DNA of 34,443 nucleotides, taken from Chloroflexota bacterium. Lineage in GTDB: Bacteria > Chloroflexota > Dehalococcoidia > E44-bin15. Positions 922 to 3,344 of the stretch are shown in pieces. Both the position numbers and the translations under genes were made by a program. The notes beneath the pieces are model-generated. The model worked only from the letters and a program-made list of their open reading frames with translations. It ran no database searches and was not told where the DNA came from. Location of the stretch: assembly GCA_030626475.1 (NCBI GenBank), contig DAOUOW010000008.1, forward strand, positions 1 through 34,443, written 5' to 3'. Within the stretch, counting starts at the first letter, position 1; each line of letters opens with the position of its first letter.

Positions 922-1263
922 GGGGACGAGTGGTTTCGACAGGGGAAGAATGCCCCGGAATTGCAGGCCGAGGTGCCACTGATCTCGTAAAACAAGTGGC
1001 GAAAAATAAACGACAACCACGTCTACGCTAGCTAAGCTGGACACATCCCCCCCGCCTCCCTCGATGGGTGGGGGTGGATGACGAGCAGTCGGGGTGCGGC
1101 AATCCTGAGGTCGATAAGGGTTGCCAAAGAAACTATCGACTGGCTCAGCCGTACTCCGTCGGCAGAGGACGGTTGGGTGAGAGCAAAGAGCTGACTAAGC
1201 CTGTAGCATATTCTGGGCTAGCCTCCTCTGGACGGGGAGTTCGACTCTCCCCCGTCTCCACCA
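922..1263 (+). ncRNA. ssrA: transfer-messenger RNA (tmRNA, SsrA)
   Basis: 5' GGGGACGAGTGGTTTCGACAGGGG (acceptor 5' strand plus conserved TTCGAC region). 3' T-arm/acceptor GGGGAGTTCGACTCTCCCCCGTCTCCACCA. GGGGACG pairs with CGTCTCC; encoded CCA. Adjacent to smpB. Confidence 0.95.
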
Positions 1264-1275
1264 GAAAACTTAGAG

Positions 1276-1305
1276 GCGCTAGCTTTACATAGCTAGCGCT
1301 TTTTC
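1276..1305 (+). terminator. Rho-independent terminator downstream of ssrA
   Basis: Perfect hairpin GCGCTAGCT-TTACAT-AGCTAGCGC followed by TTTTT. Confidence 0.85.
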
Positions 1306-1371
1306 TGTTTGGATGAGGTTTTGGTGCTGATGTAGATCGACTTCAAAGCGGTCTCTCGTTCCGTTTGGGGC

Positions 1372-1457
1372 ACATAACAGCGACTGTACGGAAAGCTCGT
1401 TGCACTTCGCTTTCCCAAATTGGCTTCGCCAACTTCGTATAGTCACATATGTTATAT
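1372..1457 (-). other. attC-like folded inverted-repeat element (predicted three-way junction)
   Basis: Outer stem GACTGTACG (1382-1390)/CGTATAGTC (1436-1444) with one G-T wobble; inner hairpins GGAAAGC/GCTTTCC (1390-1396/1409-1415) and TTGGC-TTC-GCCAA (1420-1432); outermost arms ACATAAC/GTTATAT. Lies about 50 bp past the stop codon of the minus-strand ORF 1507-2934. Confidence 0.45.
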
Positions 1458-1506
1458 TCAATAAACCTGGAGTCCTATAGAATTAGAAGGGGCAGTTTTC
1501 CGTCTA

Positions 1507-2934
1507 TCACAGAACTATTCTTTTAGGCCAGGGCTCTTGCTTCGAGGTTCCCCACAACTTGCTAATGTAATCTATTGAAAATAGATCCTCCAAGGCATGT
1601 AGCCAATATGCTCCCCTATCTGTAAGAACTATTCGATCTCCATCATCTTTTAAGAATCCAAGGAAAGACATTGGTTTTATGTATTTCCCGTAGACCTCAT
1701 CAAACTCTTTTCCAAATCTTTTCTTGAAATCACTTCTCTTAAACTGTGTCTCATAGATTCTCCAATAAAACCAGCCTGCCATTTGCATATTTTCTGAGAG
1801 CTCAAGGGATAGAGCGATTGGCATCCTTCCATTTTCAAGAGCCTTGATATATTCGGCAACATTGAAGGTGTTGAGGTAGAAAATGTCCTTCAGATAAGAG
1901 GCTCCGCTTGCACCAAGACCAACGTAAAGAGGCACTGTCACAGAACAATACTTTGGAACTCCCTGTCTAGTGAATGCCCAGACAGATGTTCTTTCAAAGC
2001 CAGCACTATAAAATATATCCTCTAGAATGCCAAGCATCTTTCTTCTCTTAAATATACTGGAGATTTTGTAGTTGTTTACATCACCAGCCCCTCCCATTTT
2101 GGTGTATGGAAATCTAAAAAGAGGGTAAGCTGCAACTTGGTCTACACCCATTTCAACCAAGGCTTGGCCTGCTTGCTCTACTTCGCTATAAGTCTGGTTT
2201 GGTAATGCAAAAATGAAGTCCACATTAACGCATTCGAAGTTCTTACTAACAGCCCGTTCGACTGCTGCCTTTACTTCTTCTGTAGTATATGGCCTGTTTA
2301 AGGTCTTTAGATGCCTGTCTTGCAGAGCCTCCAATCCCATGCTCAGATGCTTTACGCCCATGGAGGTAATGGTATTGAGATTGTCTAATGTCAAATGATT
2401 GGGATGGCTTTCCATGTGGATACCACACTGCATATTAAAGGTCTTGAAGATATACTCCAAACTCTCCTCAATGCCACTAGAAAGCATTGTTGTAGGAGTT
2501 CCACCACCAATATAAAAGGAAGTAACAGGCCTATCACCAACCACCTCAGAATAGAAGTCAATCTCTCTTTTAACAGCGTTTGTGTATCTCTTTGCTACAT
2601 CAGGATTATAAATCTCTTTGTTATAAGGGCAGTAAGGACATATTTGCTCACAAAAAGGGATGTGAAGATAAAGCCCGAATTCATCAATGTCTTGGAATTT
2701 TCTCCCCAGATCCTCAAGTGAAGGAATTTTATCTTCAAGTGCAAGATCTTTCTCTTTAGTTAATAATCTCCTAAGCTTTGTTCTTAAAAAATCTTCAATC
2801 ATACCAAATACACCCTGAACTCTCTTGAGATTGGATATTAAACCGGGATTTCCCATTTCAACTAATGTGGCTATTCTAAGCAGCTGGTTGCCGGGTGTCA
2901 ATGCCTCTAACAAGCCCGAGAAACTGGTTCCCAT
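1507..2934 (-). CDS. Radical SAM protein, coproporphyrinogen III oxidase/HemW-like family
   Basis: CEQICPYCPYN (CxxxCxxC Fe-S/SAM motif), FYIGGGTPT, HMESHPNHLT, MGVKHLSMGLEALQDRHLKTLNR. Roughly 85-residue N-terminal extension before the radical SAM core; start codon uncertain. Confidence 0.85.
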   Translation of the reverse strand: MGTSFSGLLEALTPGNQLLRIATLVEMGNPGLISNLKRVQGVFGMIEDFLRTKLRRLLTKEKDLALEDKIPSLEDLGRKFQDIDEFGLYLHIPFCEQICPYCPYNKEIYNPDVAKRYTNAVKREIDFYSEVVGDRPVTSFYIGGGTPTTMLSSGIEESLEYIFKTFNMQCGIHMESHPNHLTLDNLNTITSMGVKHLSMGLEALQDRHLKTLNRPYTTEEVKAAVERAVSKNFECVNVDFIFALPNQTYSEVEQAGQALVEMGVDQVAAYPLFRFPYTKMGGAGDVNNYKISSIFKRRKMLGILEDIFYSAGFERTSVWAFTRQGVPKYCSVTVPLYVGLGASGASYLKDIFYLNTFNVAEYIKALENGRMPIALSLELSENMQMAGWFYWRIYETQFKRSDFKKRFGKEFDEVYGKYIKPMSFLGFLKDDGDRIVLTDRGAYWLHALEDLFSIDYISKLWGTSKQEPWPKRIVL

Positions 2935-2986
2935 ATCACACCCGGCTTGTCATTGGTTGGAATCCGCCCCCGCTACCAAGACGATT

Positions 2987-3010
2987 AAGGGAAGCATCTC
3001 TGCTTCCCTT
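2987..3010. other. Perfect 9-bp hairpin inside the ssrA-associated insert
   Basis: AAGGGAAGC-ATCTCT-GCTTCCCTT. Confidence 0.6.
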
Positions 3011-3169
3011 CGTATGTGTAGAGGGCATAATACTGCTACCAGTCAGGTGGCTAGCATAGGATAGCGACGGCCGACAGTGCTAAGAGCCCGGGCTTCTGAA
3101 GACTGCTTTCAAAACCTACGGCGAGGGCTCGCCTCTCGCACAAACTTCTGCGGATTATTTCGGTACGAT

Positions 3170-3197
3170 GGAGTTCGGCCCTCCCCCGTCTCCACCA
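3170..3197 (+). repeat. Partial duplication of the ssrA 3' end (att-like direct repeat)
   Basis: GGAGTTCGGCCCTCCCCCGTCTCCACCA vs GGAGTTCGACTCTCCCCCGTCTCCACCA at 1236-1263: 26/28 identical, last 17 bp exact. Confidence 0.85.
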
Positions 3198-3207
3198 AAG
3201 GAATAAT

Positions 3208-3240
3208 AGGGGTTCCACGAAATCAGTTGGGGCCCCTTTT
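3208..3240 (+). terminator. Terminator-like hairpin directly after the duplicated ssrA 3' end
   Basis: AGGGGTTCC-acgaaatcagtt-GGGGCCCCT, 9-bp stem with G-U pairs, followed by TTTT. Confidence 0.6.
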
Positions 3241-3344
3241 GAATATTGACTTGGTTTTGGCTGCGTGATAAAATACACAACGGAAGTCCTGAGCAACGCA
3301 TATCATTAAATTATTGCTGTAACATGAAAAGCGAGATTGGTTTG

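Follow-up and report, generated by a model that had tools for sequence, protein, structure and literature searches.

A small one-gene islet inserted at the 3' end of ssrA in a Dehalococcoidia genome

In the genome of a Chloroflexota bacterium, the tmRNA gene (ssrA) is followed by a short stretch of foreign DNA that contains a single gene, encoding a radical SAM protein. The stretch occupies positions 1264-3197 of the window (the whole 34,443 nucleotides that were analysed, from contig DAOUOW010000008.1) and is a genuine, precise, site-specific insertion that left ssrA intact. We consider it probable, at roughly 0.68, that it is a small non-autonomous islet whose movement depends on a recombinase encoded elsewhere. 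Relative to known ssrA islands, the single gene, the composite ends, and the lack of an integrase are new, while the kind of element is itself known.

The ssrA insertion site in the window and in relatives

The tmRNA gene was found intact at 922-1263 on the forward strand, where it matched Rfam family RF00023 over its full length with 172.8 bits; ARAGORN did not call a tmRNA at these positions. Its 3' end forms the left attachment site (attL). The last 28 bases (1236-1263, forward strand) recur in direct orientation at 3170-3197 (attR), with 26 of 28 positions identical and the final 17 bp an exact copy of the ssrA end. No third copy with up to 3 mismatches was found in the window, for which shuffling predicts 0.00 matches, and the two copies are the only ones in the whole 1.12-Mb genome (60 contigs, 68% complete). 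The segment thus has ssrA on one side and a directly repeated ssrA 3' end on the other, as is characteristic of the ssrA islands of Dehalococcoidia. The DNA between the copies also differs in composition from its surroundings. The GC content of 1264-3169 is 0.427, compared to 0.560 before and 0.546 after it, and all 1.9-kb windows elsewhere have at least 0.457. In 15 other genes of the window, GC3 ranges from 0.50 to 0.79, whereas the cargo gene has 0.38.

The DNA of 60 relatives was searched, and the regions downstream of ssrA were aligned. An empty site is present in four genomes from the family (G004, G005, G009, and G011): in these, ssrA is directly followed by a homologue of the sequence from 3198 onwards, in the order terminator, TTGACTTG...TAAAAT promoter, and YflT/CODH-ACS operon. 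A flank of the TTGACTTG type also follows ssrA in G014, an outgroup from another family of the order. Together, the four empty sites and this outgroup flank indicate that the sequence from 3198 onwards is the ancestral flank and that 1264-3197 is an insertion. In the window, this flank (3198-3274, forward strand) consists of a terminator and the TTGACT-17-TAAAAT promoter of the operon; the hairpin following the second repeat copy has a folding energy of -16.8 kcal/mol (z -2.2), and relatives have corresponding hairpins immediately behind ssrA. On both sides of the insertion, the window continues in the gene order of a same-genus genome at about 90% identity. An earlier note, made from the letters of this DNA, had described the repeat, the AT-richer segment, and the hairpin marking an ancestral ssrA 3' end, and had read them as an insertion; all of this was reproduced. 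The note had also named a finding that would speak against an insertion, a radical SAM gene at this locus in all relatives, and the gene was absent from the ssrA locus in every relative seen.

Other small units were found at the same site. In G001, which belongs to the same genus, the same flanks enclose a different one-gene insert of 1.26 kb (L090, 3924-5184), whose gene encodes a CAP12-TIR protein; the right repeat copy retains only CGTCTCCACCA, directly before the same flank. G002, from another genus, contains two one-gene units in tandem (1.27 and 1.61 kb), which lie between ssrA 3' ends and encode a DUF975-like membrane protein and an APH/EcKL-like kinase. A single unit of 1.22 kb with an enoyl-CoA hydratase gene and a degenerate distal repeat copy is present in G003. 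These three genomes thus hold at least 4 other one-gene units (1.2-1.6 kb) at ssrA, each with an intact gene and without a recombinase, and with terminators after the left att copies. Judging from these alignments, the ssrA 3' end in the source family is a likely docking site for a series of one-gene units that themselves lack an integrase.

Of 197 genomes sampled across the class, 112 had the exact 17-bp ssrA end, and about 10, counted by hand, had at least two same-strand copies on one contig. Some of these copies are spaced by 1.2-1.3 kb (G183 and G022) and others by 3-60 kb; tandem att copies at ssrA occur in G002 and G027. Two further observations concern cargo and site. CAP12-TIR is a Pycsar-type effector domain, and the islet of G001 may carry a defence gene. 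In G022, a second, degenerate tmRNA-like copy of about 320 bp lies 1.3 kb past ssrA, with a HicB-like gene in between (L154, 761-2074).

The radical SAM gene and the ends of the islet

The sole gene of the islet is located at 1507-2802 on the reverse strand and encodes a HemN/HemW-like protein of 431 amino acids with the Pfam domains Radical_SAM and HemN_C. The single radical SAM gene of the earlier note was confirmed, while the open reading frame listed for it, 1507-2934, proved too long: the homologues, from 14 loci, start at residue 45 of that frame, which sets the gene at 1507-2802. The first 44 residues were ruled out as a mobile N-terminal domain, and correspond to the promoter and leader. 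The protein carries a CxxxCxxC motif, in which C51, C55, and C58 are invariant among the homologues. No named NCBIfam member (HemN, HemW, HutW, or PRK08629) reached its curated cut-off, with scores of 194 against 355 for PRK08629 and 134.8 against 205.4 for HemW.

The 14 homologous loci, at 64-80% identity, are spread over many phyla, including Actinomycetota, Planctomycetota, Spirochaetota, Aminicenantes, KSB1, Cloacimonadota, Bacteroidota, and others. By sequence inspection, most of those with enough flanking sequence contain a tight cluster with a second radical SAM gene of about 292 amino acids, a partner that is missing beside the solitary gene of the window. The two-gene cluster (431 and about 292 amino acids) was seen at L118, L119, L121, L122, L124-L128, and L130, in some cases extended by a third gene (about 188 amino acids), and its conservation across many phyla makes it a candidate for an unnamed pathway. 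Among the other genomes of the family, the cargo gene was absent, apart from a C-terminal fragment of 33 amino acids at a contig end in G004, which is 88% identical. An additional att-like match near this fragment (G004:C14) has the wrong orientation and was judged coincidental. No relatives of the protein were found in viral contigs, and a phage origin of the cargo was rejected on this ground.

The gene is preceded by a promoter, TTGACA-17-TAGAAT (2901-2873, 11 of 12 positions matching), and a leader motif, TTGAAATGGGAAATCCCGGTT (2861-2841), which together span 2841-2901 on the reverse strand. The noncoding flanks of the gene measure 243 and 367 bp. Besides its copy in the window (2841-2861, reverse strand), the leader motif, TTGAWATGGGAAATCCSGGNT, occurs at G000:C10:9285-9305 and in about 18 further places in 8 genomes. 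In several cases it lies a few bases past sigma-70-like promoters of unrelated genes, encoding radical SAM, DUF169, enoyl-CoA hydratase-like, and other proteins, and it is a candidate operator or leader element of a regulon.

The left end of the islet (1264-1310, forward strand) carries a strong intrinsic terminator with its stem at 1272-1303 (z -4.9), and comparable terminators come after other att copies of the family. As the islet brings its own terminator at this end, transcription of the tmRNA is predicted to stop before the cargo. This hairpin, straight after the tmRNA, was absent from the earlier note.

The right end (3157-3180, forward strand), ATTTCGGTACGATGGAG..., resembles an attP half and is not derived from ssrA, as judged by comparison with one of the two units of G002 (unit a). 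Directly upstream of CTCCCCCGTCTCCACCA, the window unit and G002 unit a are identical at 19 of 24 bases, in register, whereas ssrA at the same 24 positions shares only 10 with the window unit and 8 with unit a. A departure from ssrA upstream of the repeat, which characterizes insertion into the T-loop, is thereby present. The 17-letter right-end motif ATTTCGGTASGAKGGAG, which was defined from the same two units that share it, was found free of mismatches only at these two junctions among 14 genomes. The common sequence has the form expected of an attP half-site, and would place the exchange point in the T-loop part of ssrA.

Further inside, a fragment of a tRNA-Met 3' end, comprising T-arm and acceptor, was found at 2949-2981 (forward strand), with an alignment score of 41 compared to 25 for the best of 300 shuffles. 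It resembles the scar of an attachment site and is directly followed on its 3' side by a hairpin (2985-3012, forward strand, z -4.6), just as hairpins come right after the tRNA-Met att copies of G002. A tRNA-Met 3'-end fragment is also part of G002 unit a, and in both units it lies 130-220 bp further in from the right end. The scar and hairpin inside the right end make the islet a composite. An Rfam search of 2800-3200 gave no match, and the fragment with its hairpin (2949-3008) was absent from the earlier note.

The proposed recombinase and the origin of the islet

We propose that a circular form of the unit recombined site-specifically with ssrA, within the T-loop portion of the gene, and that ssrA stayed intact in this way. 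The recombinase would have acted in trans, and would more likely be a relative of the DsiB serine recombinases of the class than a tyrosine integrase. The cargo would be read towards ssrA from its own promoter. Judging from the tRNA-Met scar, a second attachment site in an RNA gene may have contributed to the assembly of the unit or have been a stage on its route.

Profile searches gave no match to PF07508 in the source genome and none to PF00589 on the ssrA contig, in agreement with the earlier note, which had seen no integrase. Among the matches listed, a recombinase adjoined ssrA in none of the 12 family genomes in which ssrA was located, and no tyrosine integrase was next to ssrA on the family's ssrA contigs. 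A recombinase acting on the islet ends was not found in the 68% complete genome. The premise of the earlier note, that a tyrosine integrase would target this site, gained no support: the integrase beside ssrA in this class is a large serine recombinase (PMC3146451). Such a recombinase adjoins ssrA in G019, G027, G029, and G045, and in G027 it is followed by genes judged from their sequence to be ParB- and Mom-like. In several other families of the class, DsiB-type arms (GTGTTTCAGG...GAAACAC) flank att copies. From this ssrA island setting, the class of the organism was deduced to be Dehalococcoidia. These arms, GTGTTTCAGG and GAAACAC, are clear in those families and absent from the ends of the window islet, and DsiB-type ends were therefore rejected for it.

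Another large serine recombinase, of 470-476 amino acids, is vertically kept in G001, G003, G007, G009, G012, G010, and G002 (L167-L173), where it sits between a coiled-coil gene and, mostly, RNase HI. The position of the catalytic serine is not a serine in any of the 7 copies. As this residue is replaced, the RNase H-linked protein cannot be the catalyst and was rejected as a trans-acting integrase; it looks like a domesticated, inactive recombinase.

The earlier note had called the element either decayed or mobilised in trans. That pair of options stands, and the sister units, equal in size and likewise devoid of an integrase, speak for the non-autonomous version rather than for simple decay. 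Under decay, an ssrA island of normal size would have integrated here together with an integrase of its own and later have been reduced by deletion to one gene. We regard this as a possible but unlikely origin. The 243 and 367 bp of noncoding DNA around the gene would fit it, as would the loss of the second radical SAM gene that is usual at homologous loci and the tRNA-Met scar, which shows that other boundaries were formerly present. However, the cargo gene is intact across its 431 amino acids, and independent decay to one size and plan is a less likely source of the recombinase-less one-gene units at the same site in G001, G002, and G003. A related account, which overlaps with decay, holds that integrase-bearing islands stacked at ssrA and that excision left one-gene segments between the att sites of the tandem array. 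Accretion and excision have been proposed for Dehalococcoides, and the tandem att copies of G002 and G027, the tRNA-Met copies of G002, and the nested scar of the window unit are consistent with such a history. Its parent islands were not seen, however, and among the matches listed 0 of 12 family genomes have a recombinase beside ssrA, which makes this origin doubtful.

It is very improbable that the islet is an integron-type gene cassette. Between the stop codon of the radical SAM gene and the left end lies an imperfect hairpin (1380-1465, reverse strand, DNA fold z -3.0) that is superficially attC-like, being an inverted repeat with outer boxes ATATAAC and GTTATGT and an inner imperfect stem. 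The cargo is also sporadic across phyla, as a cassette gene might be. Nevertheless, the hairpin has no extrahelical bases, its spacers are unequal, and its core boxes match the consensus at 6 of 7 positions by eye. By inspection, no such structure follows the gene in the homologous loci that were read, and the relatives define the boundaries as ssrA repeats. A chance repeat next to a vertically inherited gene, or an assembly artefact, is hardly credible: the assembly is fragmented into 60 contigs, but 0.00 chance matches are expected, both flanks follow the same-genus gene order at about 90% identity, and four relatives have the empty site.

A non-autonomous islet thus remains our preferred reading. 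A more general form of it seems improbable to us, in which arrays of one-gene cassettes in this family would use RNA-gene 3' ends, those of ssrA and tRNA-Met, as attachment sites, their units having a left-end terminator and conserved ends and being moved in trans by a recombinase outside all units. This would amount to integron-like gene collecting without attC. Like integron cassettes, the units have one gene each, occur in tandem, and have their recombinase outside the unit; in contrast to them, they attach at RNA-gene 3' ends with terminators rather than attC, and no platform integrase was identified.

Relation to known islands and to tRNA-Met sites

Genes for vinyl chloride reductase are known to be carried by ssrA islands in this class. 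In Dehalococcoides, 31 such islands were described in 2011, with 20-bp repeats, tandem arrangement, and insertion in the T-loop; 16 of the 31 have an integration module, in which the serine recombinase DsiB comes first, and the other 15 lack it and were proposed to be cis-mobilizable (PMC3146451). Their contents include rdh operons and other genes, and those with vcr are about 12 kb long (PMC3146451, PMC2764846). The units described here belong to the same class by tree position and, like the published islands, target the T-loop, have direct repeats of roughly 20 bp and a lower GC content, occur in tandem, and often lack a module; a genome of the same class (G027) has a DsiB-ParB-Mom-like module at ssrA. 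In their T-loop insertion point, tandem repeats, and module-less members, the two groups match. They differ in that the present units are 1.2-1.9 kb long with one gene and other end sequences, and an integrase-bearing parent was not found in the family. The motif TTCAGRSMGMRKCCA, directly upstream of the repeat in Dehalococcoides, is absent from the window unit, which has ATTTCGGTACGATGGAGTTCG there. This motif has been described for one genus only, and the window unit was accordingly filed as a variant rather than as a Dehalococcoides-type ssrA island. The DsiB module next to attL is absent as well, a feature that is not strictly defining because 15 of the 31 published islands lack it.

The ssrA-linked dcpA islands of Dehalogenimonas likewise lie just downstream of ssrA, with direct repeats of 11-25 bp and low GC, but they are about 23 kb long and contain recombinase, primase, and other genes (PMC13390414), compared to 1.9 kb and one gene here. 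With cis-mobilizable elements (CIMEs), the window unit shares att sites at both ends and the absence of recombinase and transfer genes; unlike CIMEs, usually thought to be remnants that moved with a neighbouring element, single units here stand alone at the site. Tyrosine-integrase islands at tRNA and tmRNA genes also have a direct repeat of the RNA-gene 3' end and leave the RNA gene intact. Here, in contrast, no such integrase was found by ssrA on the family contigs, among the matches listed, and the right end upstream of the T-loop is not ssrA-derived.

If the proposed reading is true, a pair of attachment half-sites with a terminator and a gene is nearly all that the smallest mobile form of these islands requires. 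This would account for the way in which solitary genes, for example those for the radical SAM enzyme or for a TIR effector, become established in streamlined genomes, and the islet yields a defined att sequence with which the recombinase can be traced.

In G002, tRNA-Met 3'-end fragments, each with a hairpin, are arranged in arrays with a spacing of 0.9-2.5 kb, both downstream of a tRNA-Met gene and on another contig (L203, 6828-9769, and L204, 5194-8753, reverse-complement coordinates). The units lack an integrase and contain 1-2 genes, which encode, among others, MscL, a PEMT-like protein, and an Oxidored_molyb protein. In G004, a phage tape-measure-like gene was observed upstream of a solitary tRNA-Met 3'-end copy (L206, 1918-7092, reverse-complement coordinates); a prophage probably ends here, at a tRNA site of this kind.
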